Shown piece after piece: positions 10,568-28,906 of a DNA stretch of 64,000 bases (within the stretch, counting starts at the first letter, position 1; each line of letters opens with the position of its first letter). The notes beneath the pieces are model-generated. The model worked only from the letters and a program-made list of their open reading frames with translations, searched no databases and had not been told where the DNA came from. Source of the DNA: Lutibacter sp. B2 (lineage in GTDB: Bacteria > Bacillota > Clostridia > Peptostreptococcales > Thermotaleaceae); contig JADPRS010000011.1 of NCBI GenBank assembly GCA_015686845.1, positions 1 to 64,000 on the forward strand, read 5' to 3'. A program made the position numbers and the translations under genes.

Positions 10568-11260
10568 CTATTCTTCTACAAGTGCGACTGCTCGAATAGG
10601 AGAGCCAGAGCCATCTCTAATCTTTAATGGTAAGCCAAAGAATAAGAATCTTTGATTAACCACCTTGTCTAAATTACACAAATTCTCCGTATTCGTAATA
10701 TCATATTCACCACATACTAAGTGACCAGAAAAATCTAAATCATCGGGATGATCAATGGCTGGAGCATCTACGCCTATATTCACAACACCTTGCTCTGCAA
10801 GCCACTTTGCACCTTTATAGCTAAGACCAGAATAGGTTGTTTGCCATTTATCCGTATTAAAATATCTATCAAAGTGACCCGTATAGAGTAATACAATATC
10901 TCCAGGATAGATGGTCTGTCCTGATTTTTTTAGTGCATCTTCTAAATCATCAGGTTCTATGTATTTTGTAGGAGGAATATGAGATAAATCAATACAGATG
11001 GCAGTACCCCAAAAATAATTTAGAGGCATTTTATCAATGGTTTTGCCAGAAGGTTTATATTCCCAAACTCCATCACAATGGGTTCCTCCATGTTCACTGA
11101 TGAGGAGGTTTCTTGCAGAGAAACCAAGTGTTTTACTACCTGTTGCTTTCATATTTTCTTCGTGGTTCATATTTGTCATGATAAATGTTTTTTGATGCAT
11201 TGGAAATACAGACATACCTTGGAAAATTTCTTGTGAAAGATCAATTAATTTTAAACTCAT
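10568..11260 (-). CDS. Cyclase-family metal-dependent hydrolase (kynurenine formamidase-like)
   Basis: A 230-residue protein of the cyclase/KynB family, which hydrolyses amides and cyclic amides with a metal site of form HxxxHxDxxxH. Here the motif is HGGTHCDGVWE: His57, His61 and Asp63 are present, but the last ligand is Glu67 in place of His. The start at 11260 is set by ACTCCTTT (AAAGGAGT on the minus strand); the frame stays open upstream only by chance through the palindromic element at 11282. It is divergent from the purine gene series. An imidazolone- or formyl-group hydrolase in purine breakdown is possible, but this is only inference. Confidence 0.82.
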   Translation of the reverse strand: MSLKLIDLSQEIFQGMSVFPMHQKTFIMTNMNHEENMKATGSKTLGFSARNLLISEHGGTHCDGVWEYKPSGKTIDKMPLNYFWGTAICIDLSHIPPTKYIEPDDLEDALKKSGQTIYPGDIVLLYTGHFDRYFNTDKWQTTYSGLSYKGAKWLAEQGVVNIGVDAPAIDHPDDLDFSGHLVCGEYDITNTENLCNLDKVVNQRFLFFGLPLKIRDGSGSPIRAVALVEE

Positions 11261-11281
11261 AAAAAAACACTCCTTTCTACT

Positions 11282-11411
11282 TATAGATAAACAACTTAGA
11301 TAAAGGGTGTAATGATATAAACGTCGTTCCGGCAAGTATGAAGATTGCAAGTCACTCCTTATCATATAATTACACCCTTTTAAAATTAAAGGATGAGGTT
11401 GTTTATCTATA
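11282..11411. repeat. MITE-like palindromic element, copy 1
   Basis: About 130 bp bounded by the inverted repeat TATAGATAAACAAC, with an inner pair AAGGGTGTAAT / ATTACACCCTT and a short hairpin GCAA...TTGC in the centre. A close copy in the same orientation lies at 39552-39694. The element ends 22 bp upstream of the cyclase-family start codon, so it forms the 5' leader of that gene or carries its promoter. It encodes nothing. It could be a non-autonomous transposon or a conserved structured RNA. Confidence 0.8.
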
Positions 11412-11669: not shown

Positions 11670-11722
11670 ATAAAGAAATATAAGAAAAAAACAATACAAG
11701 AAAGAGAACGGAGGTCATATTG

Positions 11723-12628
11723 ATGGATAATAAAAAGTACATATTAGCTGTTCCAAATTTTAGTGATGGAAGAAGAACAGAAGTGATTGAAAAAATTGTG
11801 GATGAGGTTAGAGGGGTAGAAAATGTTACGCTGGTAAGTTATGAGCCTGAACATGATTTTAATAGAACGGTTGTAACACTTATAGGAGAGCCTGAACCAC
11901 TAAAAAAAGCATTAGTAAATATGGCAGCAAAAAGCTATGAACTTATAAATATGGAAGAACAAAAGGGTACTCATCCTAGAATTGGTGCTCAGGATACGAT
12001 TCCTTTATTTCCATTTAAAAATATTACATTGGATGAATGTAAAGAATTAGCAGAGGAAATAGGTACTGAAATTTTTGAAAAAAATGATGTTCCTGTCTAT
12101 TTTGCAGGTGTAAATGCAAGAAATGAAGATAGAAAAGCTTTATCATTTATTAGAAAAGGCCAGTATGAAGGATTAAAGCTTGTAGCGCATACAGAGGAAA
12201 GAAGACCTGATCTTGGACCAGCAGCACTTCATCCAACAGCAGGTGCAACGATTGTTAGTGCAGATATAGAAGGATTGACTGCATATAATGTTTTTTTAGA
12301 TACAGAAAATCTAGAAATAGCAAAAAAAATAGCGCGGGGAGTTAGAGGCCCAAGTGGTGGATTTTCTACAATTAGATCCGTTGGAATAAAATTTCCAGAA
12401 AGAGAAGGCGTAGTTGTATCAATGAATATGTTTGATTGCCAAAAAACACCTATTTATAGAGCTTTTAATTTTGTAAAACAGGAAGCAGCTAGATATGGGA
12501 TAGCTGTTACAGGTTCAGAACTTGTAGGACCCGTAAAATTAGAGTATTTACTGGATTCATTAGAATATTTCTTTGGACTTGAAAACTTTAATAAGGAACA
12601 AATTTTGGAAACACATTTAATGAAATAA
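11723..12628 (+). CDS. ftcD: Formimidoyltransferase (FtcD N-terminal type), probably for formiminoglycine
   Basis: A 301-residue protein covering only the two formiminotransferase subdomains of FtcD (AVPNFSDGR at the N-terminus, GTHPRIGAQDTIPLFPF, and GLTAYNVFLDT further on). The cyclodeaminase part is absent. The family transfers a formimino group from formiminoglutamate (histidine breakdown) or formiminoglycine (purine fermentation) to tetrahydrofolate. It is the first gene of the purine series, which favours glycine formimidoyltransferase. The ATG at 11723 is preferred over a TTG one codon earlier, given GGAGG at 11709. No histidine-degradation genes are nearby. Confidence 0.88.
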   Translation: MDNKKYILAVPNFSDGRRTEVIEKIVDEVRGVENVTLVSYEPEHDFNRTVVTLIGEPEPLKKALVNMAAKSYELINMEEQKGTHPRIGAQDTIPLFPFKNITLDECKELAEEIGTEIFEKNDVPVYFAGVNARNEDRKALSFIRKGQYEGLKLVAHTEERRPDLGPAALHPTAGATIVSADIEGLTAYNVFLDTENLEIAKKIARGVRGPSGGFSTIRSVGIKFPEREGVVVSMNMFDCQKTPIYRAFNFVKQEAARYGIAVTGSELVGPVKLEYLLDSLEYFFGLENFNKEQILETHLMK

Positions 12629-12650: not shown

Positions 12651-14066
12651 GTGAAAATAGATGTGATTATTAAAAATGCAAGAATACCTCAAGGTGATGA
12701 TACGGTACTTACAAATATTTTAGTTTCAGATGAAAAAATTGTAGGTTTTATGAATGATATTGAAGGAATGGATTCAAAAGAAGTGATTGATGCAGACGGC
12801 AATTTGACTATACCTGGATGTTTTGATTCTCATACTCACTTTATGGACCCAGGATTTACCCATAGAGAAAATTTCCTTACAGGAACATCATCAGCTGCTG
12901 CTGGTGGAATTACAACGATTATGGATATGCCTTGTTGCTCAAAGCCTTCTGTTAGAAGCGTTGCAGAGTTAGAACAAAAATTAAATGCAATTAAAGATAA
13001 GGCTATTGTAGATTTTGCTTTTTGGGGAGGGGTAACTGGAGAAGATATACGTAACGGACAAACGCATCATGTTAAAGAGCAAGCTGATTATGGTGTATGT
13101 GGCTTTAAAGTATACATGACTCCTTCTGTACCAACTTATGAAAGAGTTACAGATCCTGAAATGTTAGAAGCATTTAAAGTAGTAGCTGAGACAGGATTAC
13201 CAGTAGGTATTCATGCTGAGAACTATGCTATGTGTGACTATTATGTGAATAAGTTCCAAAAGGATGGAAGATTGGATGGTCCAGCTTGGGCAGAAGCAAG
13301 ACTTACATTAGCTGAAAAGGTTGCTATTGAATTAGGGATTAGTTTTGCAGAAGAAACAGGAGCAAGATTACATATTGTTCATATGAGTACAGGTATAGGT
13401 GCAAAATTAGTAGGAGAGGCAAAGAAAAGAGGTTTACCTGTAACAGCAGAAGCAACACCTCATTATTTAACGCTAAATTATCAGGATGCTATGACAGAGC
13501 ATAAACAGTATGCAAAAATAGCACCGCCTCTTAGAACGAAGAAAGATAATGAAGGACTTTGGGAAGGACTTAAAAATGGAAGTGTAGATTTTGTTGCTAC
13601 TGACCATGCTCCGTATGAAATTGCAACAGAAAAAGAAGCAGAAGGTGTGAATATTTGGACTGCTTTCCCAGGAATCCCAGGGGTTGAGACCATGGTACCT
13701 ATTTTAGTAAGTGAAGGATACAACAAAGGTAGAATTACATTAAGTAAATTAGTAGATGTTCTTAGTACAAATGCTGCAAAGCACTATGGATTATATCCTA
13801 AAAAGGGCGCTATGAACATTGGTTCTGATGCTGACTTTACCATTATAGATCTCGAAAAAGAGTGGACGATTGATCAAAAGAAAACTTATTCTATGGCAAA
13901 ATATAATCCATTACATGGATTTAAATTAAAAGGAAAACCAGTAAAAACTGTTGTTCGAGGAAAGATTGTATACGATGATCAAGTAGGGGTTATTGGACAA
14001 GAAGGATATGGAGAATTTGTAAAACGTCAAAGTATACAAATGTTAGATAAAACAATCAAATATTAG
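12651..14066 (+). CDS. Allantoinase/dihydropyrimidinase-like cyclic amidohydrolase (candidate xanthine ring opener)
   Basis: A 471-residue cytosolic TIM-barrel amidohydrolase of the allantoinase/hydantoinase/dihydroorotase group. The binuclear metal site is complete: His61 and His63 (DSHTHF), carbamylated Lys153 (GFKVYMT), His188 (GIHAEN), His244 (HIVHMS) and Asp318 (ATDHAP). The start is GTG with AAGGGGG upstream. It follows ftcD by 22 bp. Allantoin use would be the default annotation, but no urate oxidase or allantoicase gene is present. In this series the missing step is hydrolytic opening of the xanthine pyrimidine ring, chemistry this family does on related cyclic ureides. That assignment is inference. 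Confidence 0.87.
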   Translation: MKIDVIIKNARIPQGDDTVLTNILVSDEKIVGFMNDIEGMDSKEVIDADGNLTIPGCFDSHTHFMDPGFTHRENFLTGTSSAAAGGITTIMDMPCCSKPSVRSVAELEQKLNAIKDKAIVDFAFWGGVTGEDIRNGQTHHVKEQADYGVCGFKVYMTPSVPTYERVTDPEMLEAFKVVAETGLPVGIHAENYAMCDYYVNKFQKDGRLDGPAWAEARLTLAEKVAIELGISFAEETGARLHIVHMSTGIGAKLVGEAKKRGLPVTAEATPHYLTLNYQDAMTEHKQYAKIAPPLRTKKDNEGLWEGLKNGSVDFVATDHAPYEIATEKEAEGVNIWTAFPGIPGVETMVPILVSEGYNKGRITLSKLVDVLSTNAAKHYGLYPKKGAMNIGSDADFTIIDLEKEWTIDQKKTYSMAKYNPLHGFKLKGKPVKTVVRGKIVYDDQVGVIGQEGYGEFVKRQSIQMLDKTIKY

Positions 14067-14081
14067 TTAGGGGGATTTTAT

Positions 14082-14684
14082 ATGTCAAGACATGCCATTT
14101 TAGTGATAGATATGTTAAATGACTTTATAGGAGAGAAGGCACCACTTAGATGCCCAGGCGGAGAGGATATTATTCCTAATCTTCAAAAGTTATTCAATTG
14201 GGTTAGAAGTAGAGAAGACGATGAAGTTCGTTTGGTGCATATTCAAGAAGCACACAGAAAAAATGATGCGGATTTTAGAGTTAGACCTGTTCATGCAGTA
14301 AAGGGAACATGGGGTTCTGATTTTATTAAAGAACTTTATCCAGAAGGGGAAGAATATATTATTCCAAAGAGAAGACATAGTGGATTTGCTCATACAGATT
14401 TAGATTTATATTTAAGAGAAGAAAATATAGATACTGTTGTTTTGGTTGGTGTTTGGACGAATGTTTGTGTTAGAAGTACTGCATCTGATGCTCTTTATAA
14501 TGCATATAAGGTAATCACTTTAAGTGATGGATGTGCTTCAAAAACAGAAGAAATGCATCAATATGGTTTAAATGATTTGGGTATATTTACGAAGGTTATG
14601 AGTATGGATGATTATATAAATGCTTGGGAAAATGGAGAAGATCCATGGTTAGGTGGAGGAGATACAGAAAATAAGGTTAAATAA
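14082..14684 (+). CDS. Isochorismatase-like cysteine hydrolase (candidate ureido-imidazole hydrolase)
   Basis: A 200-residue isochorismatase-fold hydrolase with the full catalytic triad Asp10 (VIDMLND), Lys96 (IPKRR) and Cys129 (GVWTNVCVR). Relatives include nicotinamidase, N-carbamoylsarcosine amidohydrolase and ureidoacrylate hydrolase RutB, all of which split amide or ureido groups. It lies 15 bp after the allantoinase-like gene with AGGGGGA as binding site. The ureido group left after xanthine ring opening is a natural substrate. An alternative is a nicotinamidase unrelated to the pathway. Confidence 0.88.
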   Translation: MSRHAILVIDMLNDFIGEKAPLRCPGGEDIIPNLQKLFNWVRSREDDEVRLVHIQEAHRKNDADFRVRPVHAVKGTWGSDFIKELYPEGEEYIIPKRRHSGFAHTDLDLYLREENIDTVVLVGVWTNVCVRSTASDALYNAYKVITLSDGCASKTEEMHQYGLNDLGIFTKVMSMDDYINAWENGEDPWLGGGDTENKVK

Positions 14685-14855: not shown

Positions 14856-15410
14856 ATGAGATTAGTTGTGGCAATAACAGGTGGTAGTTGTGCTATATAT
14901 GGGATTGCCCTACTTAAGGCATTGGAACAACTAGGTGTTGAAACACACCTAGTTGTATCTAGAATGGGAGAATATGTAGCAAAACATGAATGTGATATGG
15001 ATATTGAAGCATTAAAAGAGTTGGCTACTTATTATCATGAAAATGATGATTTAGCTGCACCTATTGCTAGTGGTTCCTTTAAAACAGATGGTATGATTAT
15101 TGCACCTTGTTCAATGAATACCTTAGCAGCAATTGCAAATGGAATATCAACCAATTTGGTTACTAGGGCAGCAGATGTGACTATAAAAGAAGGACGAAAA
15201 ATGATTATTTTACCTCGGGAAACCCCTCTTAGTGTCATACACCTAGAAAATATGTTGAAGCTTGTGAGAACAGGTGTAAAAGTTGTACCTGCTGCTCCAG
15301 GATTTTACCATCAACCTCAAACCATAGGAGATTTAGTAAATATTATGGTAGGAAAGGTACTAGACCAAATAGGGATAGAACATAATTTAGTTCGAAGATG
15401 GGGTGAGTAA
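14856..15410 (+). CDS. ubiX: UbiX-like flavin prenyltransferase
   Basis: A 184-residue flavoprotein of the UbiX/Pad1 family, which joins dimethylallyl phosphate to FMN to make prenylated FMN for UbiD enzymes. The FMN-binding GGS motif (AITGGSCAIYG), the APCSMNTLAAIANG segment and LPRETPLSVIHLENM are typical. AGGGGAGG precedes the ATG. It is followed by a UbiD gene four bases later, the usual pairing. It makes the cofactor for that decarboxylase. Confidence 0.93.
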   Translation: MRLVVAITGGSCAIYGIALLKALEQLGVETHLVVSRMGEYVAKHECDMDIEALKELATYYHENDDLAAPIASGSFKTDGMIIAPCSMNTLAAIANGISTNLVTRAADVTIKEGRKMIILPRETPLSVIHLENMLKLVRTGVKVVPAAPGFYHQPQTIGDLVNIMVGKVLDQIGIEHNLVRRWGE

Positions 15411-15414
15411 TAAT

Positions 15415-16764
15415 ATGGAAAGTCAAATGCTTAGGGCAAGCTTAGAAAAGCTTAAAAAGAATGGTGAATTGATGATTTGTGATGTAGCTGTAGATCCTAA
15501 GTTTGAATTGGGGGCTGTACTAAAATACTACAAGAATGAAAGACCAATTTTATTTAATCGAGTAAGGGGCAGTAATATTCCTGTTGTAGGGGCACTTTTT
15601 GGAAATCGTAAAATTTATTACGATATGTTAGGCATTCATCATGAAGAAAGAATTGCGAAGTTTGCAGATGCAATAGCAAACCCTAAACCTGCAAAATTAG
15701 TAAGAGATGGACCTGTAATGGAAAATATTATTACTAGAAATATTGATCTTGAAAGGATGCTTCCTACGCCTACATTTCATGAAAAGGATTCATCAAGTTT
15801 TATTACGGCAGGAATGTTAGTTATTAGAGATCCTGATACGGGTAGAAATTATATTTCTATCAGAAGATTTCAAATAAATGGTGGCAATGAAATGAGTATT
15901 TTGATTGCCTCGCCTTTACTAAGAAGACAATTTGAACGTTTGGAATCAAAAAATAAGCCTTTAGAAGTAGCAATCGTATTAGGATATGATTATTCATTAT
16001 TATTAGCATCACAGATAAGTAGTGAAACTTATGGTGTTGATAAATATGAAATTGATAGTGCTCTAAGGGGAGAACCATTAGAGTTAGTAAAATGTCATAC
16101 AGTTGATTTAGAAGTACCAGCATATGCTGAATATGTTTTTGAAGGAATGATCGTACCTAATAAAAGGGAAGATGAGGGACCTTTTGGAGAATTAATGGGA
16201 TACTATGGTCCAAAGGGAAGTCATCCAATTGTAGAAATTAAAGCAGTGATGCATAGAAATAATCCGATTTTTCAAACTGCTTTTCCATGTAGAGAGGAAC
16301 ACCTTTCAAATGGATTGATAAGAGAGGTAGAACTATATAGTGATGTAAAAAGACTGGTTGATGTAAGGGATGTAAATGTAACCATTGGCGGAGGATGCAG
16401 ATTCCACGGAGTTGTTTCAATTAATAAGAAATCTGAAGGTGATGGCAAAAGTGCAATCATCGGTGCGTTAAGTAGTAGTAAGGATTTAAAGCATGTTGTG
16501 ATTGTAGATAGAGACATCAATATTTTTAAAAATGAGGATGTAGAATTAGCCATTGCCACTAGAGTTCAATCTTCAAAGGATATAGTAATTATTCCTGATG
16601 CACTAGGTTCAGGATTAGATCCTTCTCATAATATAAGAGGGGTAACGGATAAATTAGGGATAGATGCTACAAAGCCTTTAGGAGATGAGGGAATAAACTT
16701 TAGTAGAGCATGTATTCCTCATTTTGAAGAAATTAATATAAATAAATACTTTCCGAATATATAA
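15415..16764 (+). CDS. ubiD: UbiD family decarboxylase (candidate 4-amino-5-imidazolecarboxylate decarboxylase)
   Basis: A 449-residue UbiD-type prenyl-FMN decarboxylase. The EGPFGELMGYYG motif with its catalytic Glu residues, the RRFQINGGNEMSI segment and the C-terminal FDGxxD-like region (SGLDPSHNIRGVTDKLGIDATKPLG) are seen. The ATG at 15415 with GGGGTGAG upstream is preferred to a GTG at 15403. UbiD enzymes act on aromatic and unsaturated acids. Located between ureido-hydrolase and shell genes, it fits removal of the imidazole carboxylate to give 4-aminoimidazole. Ubiquinone or menaquinone synthesis is an unlikely alternative, as no partner genes are near. Confidence 0.9.
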   Translation: MESQMLRASLEKLKKNGELMICDVAVDPKFELGAVLKYYKNERPILFNRVRGSNIPVVGALFGNRKIYYDMLGIHHEERIAKFADAIANPKPAKLVRDGPVMENIITRNIDLERMLPTPTFHEKDSSSFITAGMLVIRDPDTGRNYISIRRFQINGGNEMSILIASPLLRRQFERLESKNKPLEVAIVLGYDYSLLLASQISSETYGVDKYEIDSALRGEPLELVKCHTVDLEVPAYAEYVFEGMIVPNKREDEGPFGELMGYYGPKGSHPIVEIKAVMHRNNPIFQTAFPCREEHLSNGLIREVELYSDVKRLVDVRDVNVTIGGGCRFHGVVSINKKSEGDGKSAIIGALSSSKDLKHVVIVDRDINIFKNEDVELAIATRVQSSKDIVIIPDALGSGLDPSHNIRGVTDKLGIDATKPLGDEGINFSRACIPHFEEININKYFPNI

Positions 16765-16788
16765 AGTAAACAAAGGTGGTTGATACGA

Positions 16789-17055
16789 ATGAATCAAGCC
16801 TTAGGAATATTTGAAATAAGAAGTAAGGTAGGAGCTATTGTAGCAGCCGATGCAATGGTGAAAGCAGCAGATGTAACAATTGCTGATTTTAATTTAGTGG
16901 GATCAGGGGTTATATCTGTCATGGTAGAAGGGGAAGTGGCAGCTGTAAATGCAGCGATTGAAAGTGCTAAGATGTCCGTTGGAAATATGGCAGAGATTAT
17001 TTCAATTAATGTAATTGCAAGACCACATGATGAAGTATCAAAAATATTAAAGTAG
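16789..17055 (+). CDS. BMC hexamer shell protein 1 (PduA/EutM type)
   Basis: An 88-residue single BMC-domain protein that forms flat hexamers tiling the facets of a bacterial microcompartment. Typical sequence: QALGIFEIRSKVGAIVAADA at the N-terminus, pore loop FNLVGSGV with a small GSG pore, EGEVAAVNAAI and IARPHDEV at the end. ATG at 16789 is chosen because AAAGGTGG lies nine bases upstream; the earlier TTG would abut it. It is the first of four shell genes, 24 bp after ubiD. Confidence 0.96.
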   Translation: MNQALGIFEIRSKVGAIVAADAMVKAADVTIADFNLVGSGVISVMVEGEVAAVNAAIESAKMSVGNMAEIISINVIARPHDEVSKILK

Positions 17056-17072: not shown

Positions 17073-17384
17073 ATGGCAAATCCATTAGCAAAAAATATAA
17101 TGGCAAATATTGCGAATCAGATGAAGGTTCAAAGGGATACGAGTCATGAAAATCATAAAGAAATGGATAGCAAGTATGAAGGTTTATTAAAAGATGTAAT
17201 ACATAAAAAGGTTGAAAAGAAAGAAGAAAGAAGAAAAGCTTCTTTAAATACAATGAAGTTGGATGACTACTTAGATCATTTTAACAAGGTAGAGAAAAAG
17301 GAAGAAAAAATAATAGAAAAAAATGAAAAAAGAAAAATGACATTAGAAGACTTTGGAAATCTTTTAACTGGAGGTGTGAGATGA
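17073..17384 (+). CDS. Unrecognised charged linker-like protein inside the BMC gene cluster
   Basis: A 103-residue, highly charged, probably helical or disordered protein with no family I recognise. It starts with an amphipathic stretch PLAKNIMANIANQMK, has a Lys/Glu-rich middle, and carries two similar short motifs, MKLDDYLDHF (about residues 61-70) and MTLEDFGNLL (about 89-98), separated by KEEK-type linkers. Such repeated short helices joined by charged linkers are seen in carboxysome assembly proteins that tie cargo to shell. It overlaps the next shell gene by four bases. A role as scaffold or cargo-shell adaptor is inference. Confidence 0.75.
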   Translation: MANPLAKNIMANIANQMKVQRDTSHENHKEMDSKYEGLLKDVIHKKVEKKEERRKASLNTMKLDDYLDHFNKVEKKEEKIIEKNEKRKMTLEDFGNLLTGGVR

Positions 17385-17725
17385 AAGCAGCTTTAGGTTT
17401 AATTGAAACAATCGGATTGGGCACAGCCATTACAGCCTTAGATGCTGCCGCTAAGACTGCAGATATAATATTTATTGGACATGAAAAAGTGATTGGAGCA
17501 GGAAAATCTGTGAGTGTCACAGTGCAAATCGCTGGAGAAGTAGCGGCAGTACAGGCTGCTGTTGAGTCAGGCGTATTGGCGGCTGAGAGGGTGGGAAGAG
17601 TAATCTCTCACAGGGTTATTCCGAGACCCCACGAAGAAGTAGATATGTTACTTGCTAAATTTAGTAATAATATAAGTAAAGAGATTAAAAAAGAGGAAGA
17701 TCATGAGAAAATGAAGGAGGAATAG
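17381..17725 (+). CDS. BMC hexamer shell protein 2, with unusual pore loop and tail
   Basis: A 114-residue single BMC-domain protein (AALGLIETIGLGTAITALDAA, VIPRPHEEVDMLL). The pore loop reads VIGAGKSVSV, about two residues longer than in the two neighbouring shell proteins, with a Lys next to the pore glycine. After the BMC domain a charged tail of about 20 residues (KEIKKEEDHEKMKEE) follows. The ATG overlaps the preceding gene by four bases and has GGAGGTG upstream. The distinct pore suggests it passes a different, probably anionic, molecule. Confidence 0.95.
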   Translation: MKAALGLIETIGLGTAITALDAAAKTADIIFIGHEKVIGAGKSVSVTVQIAGEVAAVQAAVESGVLAAERVGRVISHRVIPRPHEEVDMLLAKFSNNISKEIKKEEDHEKMKEE

Positions 17726-18004
17726 ATGATGGGTCAGGCATTAGGTATGATTGAAACAAAAGGATTGGTTGGGGCCATTGAAGCTGCGGATGCAATGGTA
17801 AAGGCTGCAAATGTAACATTAGTAGGATATGAAAAGATTGGATTTGGGTTGGTTACAGTAATGGTAAGAGGGGATGTTGGGGCTGTAAAGGCTGCAACGG
17901 ATGCAGGTGCAGCAGCAGCAAGAAATGTTGGGGAAGTACAGTCAGTACACGTAATACCAAGACCTCATGCTGAAGTTGAAAGAGTTGTATTAAAATCTGA
18001 ATAA
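17726..18004 (+). CDS. BMC hexamer shell protein 3, pore GFG
   Basis: A 92-residue single BMC-domain protein ([45 protein letters not shown]). The pore loop is [11 protein letters not shown], so a bulky Phe replaces the small residue usual at the hexamer pore. It starts right after the stop of the preceding shell gene, with GAAGGAGG inside the end of that gene. The overall match to EutM/PduA-type proteins is strong. Confidence 0.96.
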
Positions 18005-18033: not shown

Positions 18034-18447
18034 ATGAATAATAGTTTTTTTGTTGAAGAGATTTTAACGGGAATTACAGAAGGTATTCGTAAATCCCCTA
18101 TTGTAAAAGAAAGTAAAACAGAGAAAAGAAACGTTCACATTATAGTAGATGGAAATAAGAGAGAAATAGAAGAAATATTTAAGTTTATTGAAAGACTAGG
18201 TGTAAGATATATAGAAGAACGACTTGATGTAAAGACGATTGAGAAAACATATATGCCTAAAATTGTGAAAAGTAGTGTAGAAACATTGAGTCCTATAGAG
18301 GATCAAAAGAAAAGGGTTATAACAGAAAAAGACATTTTAGAATTGGTAGGGAAAAGGAATAAATTACATTTCTCTAAAGGAAGTATCATTACCCCTCTAG
18401 CCAAAGATTGTGCAAAGGAAAATAATATTACATTAATAAAGGATTAA
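18034..18447 (+). CDS. BMC-associated protein with encapsulation-like helix
   Basis: A 137-residue protein between shell genes. Its N-terminus (FFVEEILTGITEGIRK) can form an amphipathic helix like the targeting peptides of microcompartment cargo. The C-terminus (VITEKDILELVGKR, then GSIITPLAKDCAKENNITLI) resembles a short module that I recall from EutQ-type and other BMC locus proteins. The centre (about residues 30-75) looks like a small alpha/beta domain. Likely a cargo-to-shell adaptor or assembly factor; no enzyme motif is seen. Confidence 0.72.
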   Translation: MNNSFFVEEILTGITEGIRKSPIVKESKTEKRNVHIIVDGNKREIEEIFKFIERLGVRYIEERLDVKTIEKTYMPKIVKSSVETLSPIEDQKKRVITEKDILELVGKRNKLHFSKGSIITPLAKDCAKENNITLIKD

Positions 18448-18471: not shown

Positions 18472-18765
18472 ATGCAAATTGGAAGAATCGTAGGAACGGT
18501 TGTAGCTACAAGAAAAGATGAAAGACTTACAGGACATAAATTAATGATTACACAAATGGTAGATGTAAGTGGAAATATACAAGGACATCCAATTATTGCT
18601 GTGGATACAGTAGGTGCGGGGATTGGAGAACTTGTTTTATTTACAAAAGGAACATCTGCACGATTTGCTGCTAATAAGCCAGAATCTCCAATTGATGCAG
18701 CGATTATAGGAATTATAGATAATATTGATGTATATGAGGAGTTTTTGGTAAACAAAGGAGATTGA
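18472..18765 (+). CDS. eutN: BMC vertex protein (EutN/CcmL type pentamer)
   Basis: A 97-residue EutN/CcmL-family protein forming the pentamers that cap the twelve corners of a microcompartment. Family features: MQIGRIVGTVVATRKDERL at the N-terminus, KLMITQMVD, AVDTVGAGIGELVLFTKGTSAR, and DAAIIGIIDNIDV. It is 24 bp after the adaptor-like gene, with GAGAGGAG upstream. With three hexamer genes this gives the minimum set for a closed shell; no tandem BMC (trimer) gene is seen in the window. Confidence 0.95.
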   Translation: MQIGRIVGTVVATRKDERLTGHKLMITQMVDVSGNIQGHPIIAVDTVGAGIGELVLFTKGTSARFAANKPESPIDAAIIGIIDNIDVYEEFLVNKGD

Positions 18766-18782: not shown

Positions 18783-20591
18783 TTGGGTGTTTCAGATATA
18801 AAGAAAGCCATAGAATATAGAGAACTAATTGACGTATTAATGGGAAATAAAGTATTTGTAGATATTGTTTTACGTGGAGGAAATGTAATAAATGTTTTGA
18901 CTAGGGAAATTTATATAGCAGATGTAGCTATAAAGGGAAAATATATTTTGATGGTTGGAGAGGTGTCTAATTTAATAGATGAAAATACTATTATAATAGA
19001 TGTTGAAGGAAAATATATTTCACCTGGATTTATGGATTCTCATATGCATTTTGAAAGTAGTATGCTTACAATCACTGAGTTTTCTAGATTGTCTATTCCA
19101 TCAGGAACCACAACGTTAATAGCAGACCCCCATGAGATTGGGAACGCACTAGGCCCTGTTGGAATGAAAGCAATGGCAGATGAAGCAAGTGTGGTACCAA
19201 ATCATGTAAGTTTAGTTGTACCAGCATTAACCCCAGATTGTCCAAGTCTAGAAACGGCAGGATATGATACAACGTCTAAGGATATGGAGGATTTATTAAA
19301 TTATAAAAATATAATAGGAATTGGAGAGTTACAAGGTTTTAGTAATGCGAAACATGTATATAGAAATACACCAGAAATTGTTACAGATTTGGTAGCATCA
19401 ACGATTTATGCAAGGAGCATTGGAAAAATAGTTGATGGAAATGCACCAGAATTATTTGGAAATGAATTAGCAGCCCATATCATTGCGACTGGAGGAAAAT
19501 GCTCTTGTCATGAAACAACTACAAAGAAAGAATGTGTAGAAAAGTTAAGACAAGGGGTTTATGTATTTATGAGAGAAGGCTCTACTCAAAAAAATATGGC
19601 TGAGTGTATCAGAGCTGTTACTGAGGAAGGGTTAGATTCTAGACGATGTATATTAGCAACAGATGATATGGTTGCAGAAGATCTTGAAAATTTAGGTCAT
19701 ATGAATGAAATTGTAAAAAGGACCATTGCCCAAGGGGTAAATCCAATAGAGGCAATTCAAATGGTTACCATAAATCCAGCAACGTATTTTGGATTAGAGG
19801 ATAGAGGTGTTTTAGCACCATCAAAACTTGCAGATATTGCAATCATTAGTGATTTGTCGGAGATGACAGTTGAAGGTGTATTTATTGAAGGAAAATTAAT
19901 GGCGGTTAATAGAAAATTATTAATGGATATACCTAAATATACATATCCAGATTCTGTGAAAAATTCTGTTAAGAGAAAGCATATATCAGAGGAAGATTTA
20001 AGAATAGAAGCAGAAGGAAGAAATGCCATTGTAAGGTGTATCAAATTAATTCCAGATCAAAATTTATCAGAATGTTTGGAATACAATTTAGATGTAAGAA
20101 ATGGACTTGTTCAAGCTGATACAAATCAGGATGTACTACAAATTGGCTGTGTAGAAAGATACGGAAGGAATGGGAATATAGGAAAAGCATTTGTGCATGG
20201 TTTTGGGTTAAGATCAGGTGCATTTGCAGAGAGTGTAGCACATGATACACATAATATAATTGTTGTAGGAACCAATACGCATGATATGTCTTTAGCCGTA
20301 AATCATGTTATTGATATGGGTGGAGGAATTGCAGTATCCAAAAACAGAAAGATTATTGATGATTTGAGACTTCCAGTAGGAGGACTTATTACAGATGAAT
20401 TAACGGGTAGTGAGGTAAGTAAAAAAATTAAGCAATTAGAAGAGATCGTAAAGAAAGAGTTAGGATGTAAAGTACATGCACCGTTTATGCATTTGTCTTT
20501 TTTAGCATTGTCTACAAGTCCAAAATGGAAGATTACAGATAAAGGACTGATTGATGTTAACAATTTTAAAGTTTTACCACCAATTAAATAA
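18783..20591 (+). CDS. Adenine deaminase homologue 1, diverged (candidate 4-aminoimidazole deaminase)
   Basis: A 602-residue amidohydrolase of the adenine deaminase (Ade) family, with metal motif DSHMHFESSML (His87, His89, Glu91), ADPHEIGN, CHET and the C-terminal Ade domain (VAHDTHNIIVVG). It starts at a TTG with AGGAGGG upstream, 17 bp after the vertex gene. It differs strongly from the second homologue at 27188, which is closer to typical Ade. Lying directly behind the shell genes, it is a good candidate for deaminating 4-aminoimidazole. That substrate is inference; plain adenine deaminase is the alternative. Confidence 0.85.
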   Translation: MGVSDIKKAIEYRELIDVLMGNKVFVDIVLRGGNVINVLTREIYIADVAIKGKYILMVGEVSNLIDENTIIIDVEGKYISPGFMDSHMHFESSMLTITEFSRLSIPSGTTTLIADPHEIGNALGPVGMKAMADEASVVPNHVSLVVPALTPDCPSLETAGYDTTSKDMEDLLNYKNIIGIGELQGFSNAKHVYRNTPEIVTDLVASTIYARSIGKIVDGNAPELFGNELAAHIIATGGKCSCHETTTKKECVEKLRQGVYVFMREGSTQKNMAECIRAVTEEGLDSRRCILATDDMVAEDLENLGHMNEIVKRTIAQGVNPIEAIQMVTINPATYFGLEDRGVLAPSKLADIAIISDLSEMTVEGVFIEGKLMAVNRKLLMDIPKYTYPDSVKNSVKRKHISEEDLRIEAEGRNAIVRCIKLIPDQNLSECLEYNLDVRNGLVQADTNQDVLQIGCVERYGRNGNIGKAFVHGFGLRSGAFAESVAHDTHNIIVVGTNTHDMSLAVNHVIDMGGGIAVSKNRKIIDDLRLPVGGLITDELTGSEVSKKIKQLEEIVKKELGCKVHAPFMHLSFLALSTSPKWKITDKGLIDVNNFKVLPPIK

Positions 20592-24492: not shown

Positions 24493-24943
24493 AAAAATGT
24501 ATTCCATTGATGTAGAGGAAGACGTAAGGTTAATTGATTTATTAAGGGATCAACTCTTTCTTACAGGTACGAAAGAAGGATGTGGAGAAGGAGAATGTGG
24601 TGCCTGTACAGTCATAATGGATGGAAGAGTTGTAAATTCATGCTTAGTTATGGCATTTCAAGCAGAGGGTAGCAACATTACTACAATAGAAGGAATGTCA
24701 GACAAAGATGAGTTACATCCAATTCAAAAAGCTTTTTTAGATAAAGGGGCTGTTCAATGTGGATTTTGTACCCCTGGAATGGTGCTATCTGCAAAATCAC
24801 TATTAGATAAAAATGAAAATCCTACAAGAGAAGAAATACGAGAAGGAATATCAGGAAATCTATGTAGATGTACGGGATATAACAAAATTGTAGATGCCAT
24901 AGAACTTGCTTCTAAAGAAATAAGAGAGGAGAAAAAAGAATGA
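24461..24943 (+). CDS. Molybdenum hydroxylase [2Fe-2S] subunit
   Basis: A 160-residue subunit with two [2Fe-2S] clusters: plant-ferredoxin-type CGEGECGACTV with a distal Cys in VNSC, and the C-terminal CGFCTPGM ... CRCTGY. This carries electrons from the molybdenum site to FAD. ATG at 24461 (or the next codon) follows AAAGGGGG. It overlaps both neighbours, so translation is coupled across the enzyme genes. Confidence 0.96.
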   Translation: MMNHISLTINKKMYSIDVEEDVRLIDLLRDQLFLTGTKEGCGEGECGACTVIMDGRVVNSCLVMAFQAEGSNITTIEGMSDKDELHPIQKAFLDKGAVQCGFCTPGMVLSAKSLLDKNENPTREEIREGISGNLCRCTGYNKIVDAIELASKEIREEKKE

Positions 24944-26190
24944 AACCTCTAAATATAGTTGGCAGTAGAGTAATAAGGGTAGATGGGAAAGCAAAGGTAA
25001 AAGGTGAAGCCATTTATCCTCAAGACATATATTTAGATGGAATGTTATATGGAAAAACCATTCGGTCAACAAAGGTTCATGCAATGATTGAAGTAGACAC
25101 TAAAAAAGCAGAAACGGTAGAGGGCGTAGTAAAAATTCTTACATATAAAGATGTAACGGGGGAAAATCATCATGGGGTTGTATTTAAGGACCATGAGGTT
25201 TTCTGTTCTAAAAAAGTAAGAAGGATAGGGGACCCCATTGCTTTTGTCATTGCCAATTCAGAAAGAGTAGCAAAGAAAGCAGCTGAAATGATAGAAATAA
25301 AATATAAAGAGCTTCCCGCAGTGTTTAACCCAATAGATGCTATGAAGGAAGATTCTATTAAAATACATGGAGATAGCAATATTATTTATCATTATAAGTG
25401 CAGAAAAGGAAATGTAAATGAAGGATTTGAGAAATCTCATGTGATTGTAGAAAGAGAATATAAAACTTCTATGGTAGAACATGCCTTTTTACAACCAGAG
25501 GCAGGGGTTTCTTATATAGATGAAGAAGGAAAAATTTGTGTCTGTGCTTCTACTCAATATCCTCATTTTGATCAAATCGAAGTGGCAGAGGCACTAGGAT
25601 TAAAATTAGAAAATGTAAAAATTATGAATCCAGCAGTTGGGGGCGCATTTGGAGGTAGAGAAGATATTACCTTACAAATTCATTTGGCATTAGCAACAAT
25701 GGTTACGAAAAAACCAGTTAAAGTAGTTTATACAAGAGAAGAATCATTTCATGCGCACTCAAAACGACATCCAATTATAATGAAATATAAGACAGGTGCA
25801 GATAAAAATGGAAAATTGTTGTCCATGGAAGTAAATCTTATAGGGGATACAGGATCTTATGCTTCTTGGGCAATCAATGTAATGAGAAAAGCAGGGATAC
25901 ATGCCACAGGTCCTTATGAAATCCCAAATGTAAAAATCGATAGTTATGCTGTATATACGAATAATCCATTTTGTGGAGCCATGAGAGGTTTTGGTGCTAC
26001 ACAAACGCCCATTGGTTCAGAACAGCAGATGGATATTATAGCAAATGAGTTGGGAATAGACCCCATTCAAATTAGATTAATAAATGGTTTTAAAGTAGGT
26101 AGTGAAACATCAAATGGGCAAGTGCTCAGTGAAAGTGTACCACTAAAAAGATGTATAGAAGAAGTAAAAAATAGAATGTTTAAAGAATAG
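24940..26190 (+). CDS. Molybdenum hydroxylase large Mo-subunit, N-terminal half (split form)
   Basis: A 416-residue protein covering the first half of a xanthine dehydrogenase-type molybdopterin subunit: GKAKVKGEAIYPQDI at the start, EHAFLQPEAG, GGAFGGREDI (cofactor region) and GAMRGFGATQ. It ends at a TAG followed by AGAGGTGG and a new ATG in the same frame, so the large subunit is made as two chains. A split of this form is known in Eubacterium barkeri nicotinate dehydrogenase (NdhL/NdhM), a selenium-dependent enzyme, and matches it in size. Confidence 0.93.
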   Translation: MKPLNIVGSRVIRVDGKAKVKGEAIYPQDIYLDGMLYGKTIRSTKVHAMIEVDTKKAETVEGVVKILTYKDVTGENHHGVVFKDHEVFCSKKVRRIGDPIAFVIANSERVAKKAAEMIEIKYKELPAVFNPIDAMKEDSIKIHGDSNIIYHYKCRKGNVNEGFEKSHVIVEREYKTSMVEHAFLQPEAGVSYIDEEGKICVCASTQYPHFDQIEVAEALGLKLENVKIMNPAVGGAFGGREDITLQIHLALATMVTKKPVKVVYTREESFHAHSKRHPIIMKYKTGADKNGKLLSMEVNLIGDTGSYASWAINVMRKAGIHATGPYEIPNVKIDSYAVYTNNPFCGAMRGFGATQTPIGSEQQMDIIANELGIDPIQIRLINGFKVGSETSNGQVLSESVPLKRCIEEVKNRMFKE

Positions 26191-26202: not shown

Positions 26203-27174
26203 ATGAAAAAAAGGGGGAAGGGAATAGCAGCGACATTCTACGGAACTGGGTATGGGAATGGCTTTCCTGATGTTTCTAAGGCAGTAGCAGAGGTAGACCA
26301 TGATGGAAATGTAAACATTTATGTATGTGCCACAGAAGTAGGGCAAGGTGCAAAGACAATTATTATACAGATGGTTGCAGAAATTTTAGGACTAGGAATG
26401 AATGATATTCATCTCATTTCTGAAGATACATCCCAAACATTAGATACAGGTACAGCCGCAGCTAGTAGGCAAACATATAATACTGGAAATGCAGTAAAAA
26501 AAGCGGTGGAAGTGTTGAAAAGTAAATTATTAGAGAAAGCAAAAGAACATCTTAAATTACCTTCTTTATTGGGATTAGAAGTAAAGGATAAAGTCATCTA
26601 TTTAAAGACATTCCCCAAAAAAAGAGTGTGCTTTAAAGACCTAATAGAAGAAAAAATAAGCGTAGAAGAAACTTTTACAGCACAAACAGTACAAATGGAC
26701 GAGGAAACAGGGCAAGGGGCACCCTATTGGCCCTATACATTTAGTTGTTATGGTGTAGAGGTTGAAGTAGATACAGAAACAGGAATTATAGAAGTTATAA
26801 AAGGCGTTTGTGCCCAAGATGTAGGAAGAGCCATAAATCCAGAATTGATTGAAGGTCAAATAGATGGGGGATTTTCAATGGGATTGGGTTATGGTATAAT
26901 GGAAAAATTAAACTGTAAAGATGGAGAGATTAAAAATAATAAATTTTCTAAGTATTTGATTCCCACTGCGCTAGATATGCCAGAACTAGAAAAAATCATT
27001 GTGGAAGATCCAGAATCAAGTGCTCCCTTTGGAGCAAAGGGCATAGGAGAACCGGTTATCCTACCTGCTGCACCAGCAATATTAAATGCAATATATGATG
27101 CAATCGGTGTACGATTTTATGAGATTCCTGTTACACCAGATAAGGTATTAAGTGAAATAAATAGAGAAATATAG
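26203..27174 (+). CDS. Molybdenum hydroxylase medium Mo-subunit, C-terminal half (split form)
   Basis: A 323-residue protein covering the second half of the molybdopterin subunit: EVGQGAKTIIIQMVAEILG, DTGTAAASRQTYNTGNAV, CAQDVGRAINPELIEGQ and the active-site GAKGIGEPVILPAAPA, whose Glu is the conserved catalytic base. The own ribosome binding site AGAGGTGG and the intact sequence on both sides of the join argue for a working two-chain subunit, not decay. Together the four genes should hydroxylate hypoxanthine (or purine) to xanthine. Confidence 0.93.
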   Translation: MKKRGKGIAATFYGTGYGNGFPDVSKAVAEVDHDGNVNIYVCATEVGQGAKTIIIQMVAEILGLGMNDIHLISEDTSQTLDTGTAAASRQTYNTGNAVKKAVEVLKSKLLEKAKEHLKLPSLLGLEVKDKVIYLKTFPKKRVCFKDLIEEKISVEETFTAQTVQMDEETGQGAPYWPYTFSCYGVEVEVDTETGIIEVIKGVCAQDVGRAINPELIEGQIDGGFSMGLGYGIMEKLNCKDGEIKNNKFSKYLIPTALDMPELEKIIVEDPESSAPFGAKGIGEPVILPAAPAILNAIYDAIGVRFYEIPVTPDKVLSEINREI

Positions 27175-27187
27175 AGGAAGTGAAAAA

Positions 27188-28906
27188 ATGGATAAAATAA
27201 AAAGAAATATTCATATTGCCACAGGAAGAAAACAGGCATCCATTGTTCTAAAAAACTGCAAGATCATAAATGTATTTACAGAAGAAATCATAAATGCAGA
27301 TATTGCCATTGAAGAAGATGTAATTGTAGGAATTGGGGAATATGAAGGAAAAGAAGAAATCAATATGAATGGAAAATACGTAGCACCAGGACTGATTGAT
27401 GCACATGTCCATATAGAATCCTCTATGCTTACACCCGGAGAATTTTCAAGAACCATTGTACCAAGAGGAACGACAACCATTATTGCGGATCCTCATGAAA
27501 TTGCAAATGTATGCGGATTAAAAGGAATAAAGTATATACTGGATGAAAGTGAAAAATTGCCACTATCTGTATATATAATGTTGCCTTTCTGTGTACCTGC
27601 TACATCATTTGAAAATTCGGGTGCAGTGTTAGAAGCAAAAGAGTTAGCAACTTTAATCAATCATCCTAGAGTATTGGGCTTAGGAGAACTGATGGATTAT
27701 CCAGCAGTTATAAATGGGGATGAAAAAATAATTGATAAAATCAATCTTGCCAAAGATAAATTAATAGATGGGCATGGACCAGAGATTTCAGACAAGGAAT
27801 TAAATGGCTACGTCGTAGCAGGGACAAAAACGGAACACGAATGTTCTACCGTAGAAGAGATGATTGAAAGATTGCGTTTAGGTATGTATGTTCAAATAAG
27901 AGAAGGTTCAGCAGCTAGAAATTTAGAAACATTGATAAAGGGCGTTACAAAAGAAAATAGTAGCAGATGTATATTTTGTACAGATGATCGACATCCAGAG
28001 GATATACTCGTAGATGGACATATTGACAATAACATAAGAGTGGCAATTAAAAATGGTATGAGTCCCATTTCTGCTGTGAAAATGGCTACATTAAATGCTG
28101 CACAATGTTATGGACTGAAAAAGACAGGGGCTATTGCACCTGGATATAAAGCAGATTTGATCGTGATTGATGATCTTAAAGAATTTAATATCACAAAAGT
28201 TTATAAGGAAGGTATATGTGTAGCCGAGAATGGAAAGGCTTTATTTGAGGTAGAAGTTCATCAAAATCTTTCCGTTTTGAATACGGTTCATATTGATCCA
28301 ATCGATTTAGAAAAACTACAAATCAATGTTAAAAGTGATATTGCAAATATCATAAAAATATTGCCACACAGTTTGATTACAGAAAAAGTTGTCAGAAAAA
28401 TAGAAACAGAAAATGGAAAATTTAAATTTCGAAATCAATTAGATATGTTGAAAATGGCCGTAATAGAAAGGCATAAGAAAACAGGAAATATAGGATTGGC
28501 ATTAGTAGAAGATTTCAAGCTTAAAAATGCTGCCATTGCCTCAACGGTAGCCCATGACTCTCACAATATTATCGTCATTGGAGACAATGATGAAGATATG
28601 CTCATTGCAATAGATGAAATTGCAAAATCTGGTGGAGGCATTACCATTTGCTCAAATGGAAAAGTAGTAAAAACCCTGGCACTACCCATTGCAGGACTTA
28701 TGTCAGATATGCCTATTGAAAAAGTAAATACCCTATTGAAAGAAATGATTGAGATTGCTTATGAACTAGGGGTAAACAAAGATATTGCTCCATTTATGAC
28801 ATTGGCATTTCTTGCTTTACCAGTAATACCAAAGATTAAATTAACAGATATGGGATTATTTGATGTAGAAAAATTCGACTTTATTGAATTGAGTATAAAA
28901 GAATAA
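27188..28906 (+). CDS. ade: Adenine deaminase (homologue 2, canonical type)
   Basis: A 572-residue adenine deaminase with the usual family course: short helical N-terminus, DAHVHIESSML metal motif, TTTIIADPHEIANVCG, EHECS, GHGPEISD, CTDDRHPEDI and the C-terminal VAHDSHNIIVIGD domain. It converts adenine to hypoxanthine plus ammonia. It starts 13 bp after the molybdenum hydroxylase and is the last gene of the purine series. It is closer to standard Ade proteins than the homologue at 18783. Confidence 0.93.
   Translation: MDKIKRNIHIATGRKQASIVLKNCKIINVFTEEIINADIAIEEDVIVGIGEYEGKEEINMNGKYVAPGLIDAHVHIESSMLTPGEFSRTIVPRGTTTIIADPHEIANVCGLKGIKYILDESEKLPLSVYIMLPFCVPATSFENSGAVLEAKELATLINHPRVLGLGELMDYPAVINGDEKIIDKINLAKDKLIDGHGPEISDKELNGYVVAGTKTEHECSTVEEMIERLRLGMYVQIREGSAARNLETLIKGVTKENSSRCIFCTDDRHPEDILVDGHIDNNIRVAIKNGMSPISAVKMATLNAAQCYGLKKTGAIAPGYKADLIVIDDLKEFNITKVYKEGICVAENGKALFEVEVHQNLSVLNTVHIDPIDLEKLQINVKSDIANIIKILPHSLITEKVVRKIETENGKFKFRNQLDMLKMAVIERHKKTGNIGLALVEDFKLKNAAIASTVAHDSHNIIVIGDNDEDMLIAIDEIAKSGGGITICSNGKVVKTLALPIAGLMSDMPIEKVNTLLKEMIEIAYELGVNKDIAPFMTLAFLALPVIPKIKLTDMGLFDVEKFDFIELSIKE

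Follow-up and report, generated by a model that had tools for sequence, protein, structure and literature searches.

The locus described here raises the question of which enzyme removes CO2 from 4-amino-5-imidazolecarboxylate during the anaerobic degradation of xanthine to glycine. The anaerobic purine fermentation pathway has been known from extracts since 1956, and the step assigned to XauD would close it. The locus lies in a window (the whole stretch of DNA analysed, 64,000 nucleotides) from Lutibacter sp. B2. An earlier note had placed a UbiX/UbiD pair between a candidate ureido-splitting gene and the shell genes of a microcompartment (BMC); its ORF coordinates were exact, and both families were confirmed. 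The genes of the locus are as follows.

10568..11365, minus strand: PF04199 cyclase-family hydrolase, probable 4-imidazolone ring-opening enzyme (Pfam Cyclase, 2.8e-34)
11720..12628, plus strand: formiminotransferase of the FtcD family, formiminoglycine to glycine (TIGR02024, 326 bits; cut-off 221)
12651..14066, plus strand: cyclic amidohydrolase of the hydantoinase type, probable xanthinase (TIGR00857, 325 bits)
14082..14684, plus strand: isochorismatase-fold amidohydrolase, probable 4-ureido-5-imidazolecarboxylate ureidohydrolase (PF00857, 8.8e-44)
14856..15410, plus strand: UbiX flavin prenyltransferase, 184 aa, predicted to make prFMN for the adjoining UbiD (TIGR00421, E 2.6e-74, 249 bits; cut-off 108.9)
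15403..16764, plus strand: UbiD-family decarboxylase (XauD ortholog), 453 aa from GTG, proposed 4-amino-5-imidazolecarboxylate decarboxylase (TIGR00148, E 6e-96, 322 bits; cut-off 244.9)
16780..17055, plus strand: BMC-H shell protein (CsoS1/EutM-type matches)
17073..17384, plus strand: small MANPLA-motif protein amid the shell genes (no family match; motif in 16 loci)
17381..17725, plus strand: BMC-H shell protein, called from its sequence and kept in syntenic loci
17726..18004, plus strand: BMC-H shell protein (79-92% identity across loci)
18034..18447, plus strand: TIGR02536-like accessory protein (40 bits, below the cut-off of 152.6)
18472..18765, plus strand: BMC vertex protein, EutN/CcmL (CcmL 97 bits, EutN 69 bits)
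18783..20591, plus strand: adenine-deaminase-family enzyme XauE, probable 4-aminoimidazole deaminase (TIGR01178, 480 bits; cut-off 472.5)

In addition to the NCBIfam profile matches given above for the pair, the N-terminal, core and C-terminal domains of UbiD (PF20695, PF01977 and PF20696) all scored above their Pfam cut-offs, and at such scores a chance match is excluded for both family calls. The two ORFs overlapped by 8 bases. The ATG at 15415 is more likely to be the start of UbiD than the GTG at 15403, since the orthologs start with M-E-x-Q-M-L/F-R. The isochorismatase-fold hydrolase (14082-14684) was located upstream of UbiX, and three BMC-H ORFs and the CcmL/EutN-type vertex ORF were located downstream of UbiD. 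The pair comprised the sole UbiX and the sole UbiD of the genome, which is 98% complete. A Pfam scan of the window ORFs between 4.8 and 31 kb revealed no PurE-like decarboxylase that could take the place of UbiD.

The PF04199 hydrolase showed 75-88% identity to its counterparts beside other loci, and a PucR regulator was found upstream of it. After XauE, the plus strand carried, in order, a xanthine/uracil-type permease, a deoxyadenosine-deaminase-like enzyme, xanthine dehydrogenase and a true adenine deaminase. The gene content was thus that of a Xau purine BMC, with BMC-H and vertex genes, amidohydrolases, a decarboxylase, a formimidoyltransferase and xanthine dehydrogenase, and the locus supplied a candidate gene for each step of anaerobic xanthine degradation.

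Several other features of the locus were observed. XauE scored just over the TIGR01178 cut-off, so annotation pipelines would call it an adenine deaminase; the true adenine deaminase, with 635 bits, was encoded at 27188-28906 of the window. The molybdenum-binding subunit of xanthine dehydrogenase consisted of two adjoining ORFs (24940-26190 and 26203-27174), and the same split was found in related loci (L145:335-2588). The MANPLA protein (window 17073-17384; L139:12176-12787; L145:8098-8793), named for its first residues, was fast-changing, had 203-260 aa in relatives of Clostridium acidurici, and is a possible candidate for a cargo or shell-linking protein.

It is very probable that XauD, using prFMN made by UbiX, converts 4-amino-5-imidazolecarboxylate to 4-aminoimidazole within the pathway from xanthine to glycine, inside or at the Xau purine microcompartment. 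In the proposed route, the cyclic amidohydrolase would open the ring of xanthine to give 4-ureido-5-imidazolecarboxylate, from which the isochorismatase-fold enzyme would take off the ureido group. UbiX would prenylate FMN for the adjoining XauD, which would release CO2 and 4-aminoimidazole. Then XauE, as a member of a deaminase family, would yield 4-imidazolone, the PF04199 enzyme would convert this to formiminoglycine, and FtcD would transfer the formimino group to THF, with glycine remaining. As for encapsulation, no obvious conserved terminal extension that might act as an encapsulation peptide was seen on UbiD in the ortholog sequences and loci compared.

In the likely mechanism, the prFMN-iminium would attack, as an electrophile, the electron-rich carbon of the imidazole to which the carboxylate is attached, CO2 would be lost, and protonation would proceed via the E-R-E network. 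A point against the enzymatic role is that aminoimidazole carboxylates are able to lose CO2 without an enzyme. The amino group at position 4 should enrich the ring in electrons and ease the decarboxylation. HudA, in which imidazole and prFMN combine in a covalent adduct, shows weak decarboxylation of imidazole-4-carboxylate (1.3%) but none of imidazole-2-carboxylate (PMC7976604), which fits electrophilic substitution at C4/C5.

The co-occurrence of the pair with the other genes was examined at several scales. A scan of named genomes for UbiD orthologs gave 76 loci at at least 51% identity and one at 37%; the 76 loci and four Gottschalkiaceae-type loci made up a set of 80. Shell genes stood beside the UbiD ortholog in all 80 loci, UbiX adjoined UbiD in 79 (median gap 10 nt), and XauE was present beside it in 74; every locus without UbiX or XauE had a contig end no more than 2.2 kb away. 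Among 98 relatives, 30 had the UbiD ortholog (at least 59% identity), and the next best homologs reached at most 35%, one short fragment apart; the ureidohydrolase (at least 78%) was found in exactly the same 30. At the level of the class, XauD (at least 53%) and XauE (at least 69%) occurred in the same 13 of 391 genomes. In the order of genome G159 (199 genomes), 41 had both genes, three had UbiD only, all of them fragmented drafts, and one, 55% complete, had XauE only. One more genome of this order carried a UbiD of 43% identity in another type of locus. The earlier note had asked whether this UbiD clade always co-occurs with purine BMC genes, and the clade (at least 51% identity) was indeed found only beside them.

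In a 35-row tree, the XauD clade was monophyletic with a support of 100/100. Its sister was HmfF together with a 43% homolog, L144, although this join had a support of just 85/76; XauD formed its own clade outside the HmfF subfamily. By profile, HmfF was also the best solved relative (454 bits; next enzyme 210). The AlphaFold model of XauD (pLDDT 94) superimposed on HmfF (6h6v) with a Z score of 52.8 and an rmsd of 1.6 over 441 residues at 46% identity, and against UbiD structures generally it gave Z scores of 36-53, in agreement with the family fold. The earlier note had named nearest relatives working in phenolic acid metabolism as evidence against its proposal; the closest enzymes outside the clade were instead HmfF, decarboxylases of five-membered heteroaromatic rings. 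Its reading of the pair as a 4-amino-5-imidazolecarboxylate decarboxylase is therefore supported by the purine-BMC-only synteny and the HmfF sister group, as far as sequence can indicate. Members of the clade came from Bacillota, Synergistota and Myxococcota, and because those of the three phyla are nested in the tree, the Xau locus may have spread by horizontal transfer. Furthermore, at L144:4034-12977, a UbiD/UbiX pair (43-45% identity) was found beside genes for 2-oxopent-4-enoate hydratase and 4-hydroxy-2-oxovalerate aldolase. It probably belongs to a different heteroaromatic acid pathway and marks a functional border of the XauD clade.

No xanthinase ortholog was found in four genomes, where the best matches were 31-38%. 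Some of these genomes are drafts, in which the absence is less certain than in Neofamilia. Their variant purine-type BMC loci are as follows.

L132:9428-19987, Neofamilia
L123:4140-17679, Synergistales
L125:2620-8054, Oscillospiraceae
L137:7963-20875, Lachnospiraceae

All four loci kept UbiX, UbiD, shell genes, XauE, the PF04199 hydrolase and the formiminotransferase. Since UbiX, UbiD, the shell and XauE persist in genomes without xanthinase, we infer that the pair is part of the compartment core and that the hydantoinase-type enzyme is an upstream xanthinase. The latter role of the cyclic amidohydrolase at 12651..14066 is probable, given its conservation and its absence from the four variant genomes. 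Other imidazole amides may feed the core in the variant loci. An M20 amidohydrolase was common to L123, L125 and L132 (44-47%; at L132:15228-16409 in Neofamilia) and an AbgT transporter to L123 and L132 (63%), which suggests that an imidazole amide, such as succinyl-aminoimidazole carboxamide, is taken up and cleaved as an alternative feed. L137 also had FTCD_C and formate-THF ligase genes, consistent with ATP formation from the formimino group. The deltaproteobacterial loci L126 and L135 were rejected as variants lacking xanthinase and ureidohydrolase, both genes being present elsewhere in those genomes. The variant loci suggest that the compartment serves to hold in what decarboxylation yields, rather than what the opening of xanthine yields, with other imidazole sources as feed.

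The pair could also be read as belonging to quinone or phenolic acid metabolism and standing here by accident. Such roles are common among UbiD family members, and UbiD did give weak matches to the menaquinone and hydroxyarylic acid decarboxylase models; however, the equivalog cut-offs lay far above its scores (171 vs 496 bits for menaquinone, 143 vs 788 for UbiD, and 265 vs 650 for VdcC). The earlier note had seen no quinone genes nearby, and this extended to the whole genome as far as two families test it: there was no match for MenD, and the single match to PF02621 of the futalosine pathway was below the cut-off. A quinone role was rejected on these grounds, and a phenolic acid role on clade position, score and synteny. 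Accidental placement is at odds with the synteny kept in every one of the 80 loci, which come from several orders and three phyla, and the probability of this reading is negligible.

Another possibility is that decarboxylation precedes the ureidohydrolase, so that UbiD would convert 4-ureido-5-imidazolecarboxylate to 4-ureidoimidazole. The two steps stand next to each other in the pathway, as their genes do in the locus, but the classical order, as in PMC6620236, has ureido removal before decarboxylation. Moreover, Neofamilia (G652) kept UbiD while orthologs of xanthinase and ureidohydrolase were both missing, the latter without any match whatsoever in the genome (L132), so UbiD cannot act there on a ureido compound from these enzymes. 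We consider this order quite unlikely. Even less credit is due to a reversed reaction, in which UbiD would trap CO2 on imidazole as a carboxylase. UbiD enzymes are reversible, and carboxylation by HmfF and HudA is seen when CO2 is high, but in the published work this took bicarbonate at 0.5-1 M or CO2 under pressure (PMC6644310, PMC7976604); the neighbours of UbiD are all catabolic, and the deaminase and THF steps would pull the reaction forward. Decarboxylation of 4-amino-5-imidazolecarboxylate by XauD is thus the preferred reading.

The active-site residues of 57 XauD clade members were compared by alignment with those of nine other UbiDs. The catalytic E-R-E residues (R173, E277 and E282 of Fdc1) corresponded to R151, E254 and E259 of XauD and were kept in all 57 members. 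The Mn2+ ligands of Fdc1 are N168, H191 and E233, and K391 has been named as a further one (PMC4947166). In the XauD clade, the first three were replaced or lost. Position 146 (Fdc1 N168) held H, Y or F in 53 of 57 members, position 210 (Fdc1 E233) held Lys in 56, and no conserved His occurred at 165-170 (Fdc1 H191) in the 57 members, with Ser166 invariant. Arg150 was invariant in the clade, and the nine other UbiDs had H, I or Y. N175 and E241 of E. coli UbiD, which we take to be metal ligands, shared columns with XauD 146 and 210, and the spacing agreed. K345 of XauD, presumably the counterpart of Fdc1 K391, was Lys in 56 of the 57. Lys at 210 was also found in two distant homologs (L151 and L152) and is therefore not unique to the clade. 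The Mn2+ ligands are a typical feature of the family, and their loss was not taken as a ground for exclusion from it.

The changed ligands could mean altered cofactor handling. Because three Mn2+ ligands were replaced and an invariant Arg was gained while E-R-E was kept, XauD may bind and activate prFMN without the Mn2+ on which UbiD enzymes otherwise depend, Lys210 and Arg150 replacing the metal at the cofactor phosphate; this is a tentative suggestion, to which we give somewhat less than an even chance. If true, the decarboxylase of the compartment would be independent of Mn2+ supply. The metal-site change, which is possibly new, lends itself to a sharp, inexpensive test of the way in which prFMN is bound.

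The locus was also found in known purine fermenters. The gene order of the window recurred in the classical purine fermenter C. acidurici 9a (G505): PF04199 hydrolase, amidohydrolase, isochorismatase, UbiX, UbiD (62%), shell genes and XauE. The authors of its genome reported a lack of candidate genes between 4-ureido-5-imidazolecarboxylate and formiminoglycine in the pathway (PMC3519856), and the locus links the classical biochemistry to genes that their paper could not find. C. acidurici 9a and G512 each had a second copy of XauE (71-73%) away from the BMC locus (L140:9259-11079 and L143:9044-10864), near an apparent spermidine/putrescine-type ABC transporter. A MAG of Andreesenia angusta also had the Xau locus (L112); the type strain, described as Eubacterium angustum, ferments uric acid, xanthine and guanine (PMC5256209).

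The earlier note had stated that no gene was assigned to the decarboxylation of an aminoimidazole carboxylate, which was not the case. The fourth step had been predicted by Ravcheev et al. (2019) to be carried out by Amet_4581 (XauD), there being no other decarboxylase in the cluster; neither the name UbiD nor a residue analysis figures in that paper (PMC6620236). A passage in PMC12507026 (2025) credits the identification of the xanthinase pathway gene cluster in Clostridia and Bacilli to Tong et al. (2023; Cell Chem Biol, PMID 37164019). The decarboxylase role of the pair is thus well supported as correct and already known; the present analysis adds the test across the clade, the locus in C. 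acidurici, the altered metal site and the loci in genomes without xanthinase. The step assignment of the two ring-opening hydrolases by Ravcheev et al. may be reversed, Amet_4587 and Amet_4584 being matched to families by gene order only.

Compared with known enzymes, XauD resembled HmfF (2,5-furandicarboxylate decarboxylase of Pelotomaculum, PDB 6h6v) in E-R-E, His296 and an Arg at XauD 303/HmfF 304, but the metal positions were N, His and E in HmfF and H/Y/F, none and Lys in XauD, with Arg150 in addition, and the pathways differ. HudA/PA0254, a pyrrole-2-carboxylate decarboxylase, is likewise a prFMN enzyme acting on five-membered N-heteroaromatic acids, but it belongs to the Fdc-type branch, has 24% identity and needs Mn2+ and K+. 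The abstract of Tong et al. (2023) reportedly names a prenyl-FMN-dependent decarboxylase together with four hydrolases for the anaerobic xanthinase pathway, a set that would match the window locus. The predicted Xau BMC with Amet_4581 was among the closest systems: XauD lies two genes after the second amidohydrolase gene with the same proposed reaction, in a BMC with formimidoyltransferase and xanthine dehydrogenase (PMC6620236). With Amet_4581 matched through gene order in Alkaliphilus relatives only, no substantive difference was seen between that system and the window.
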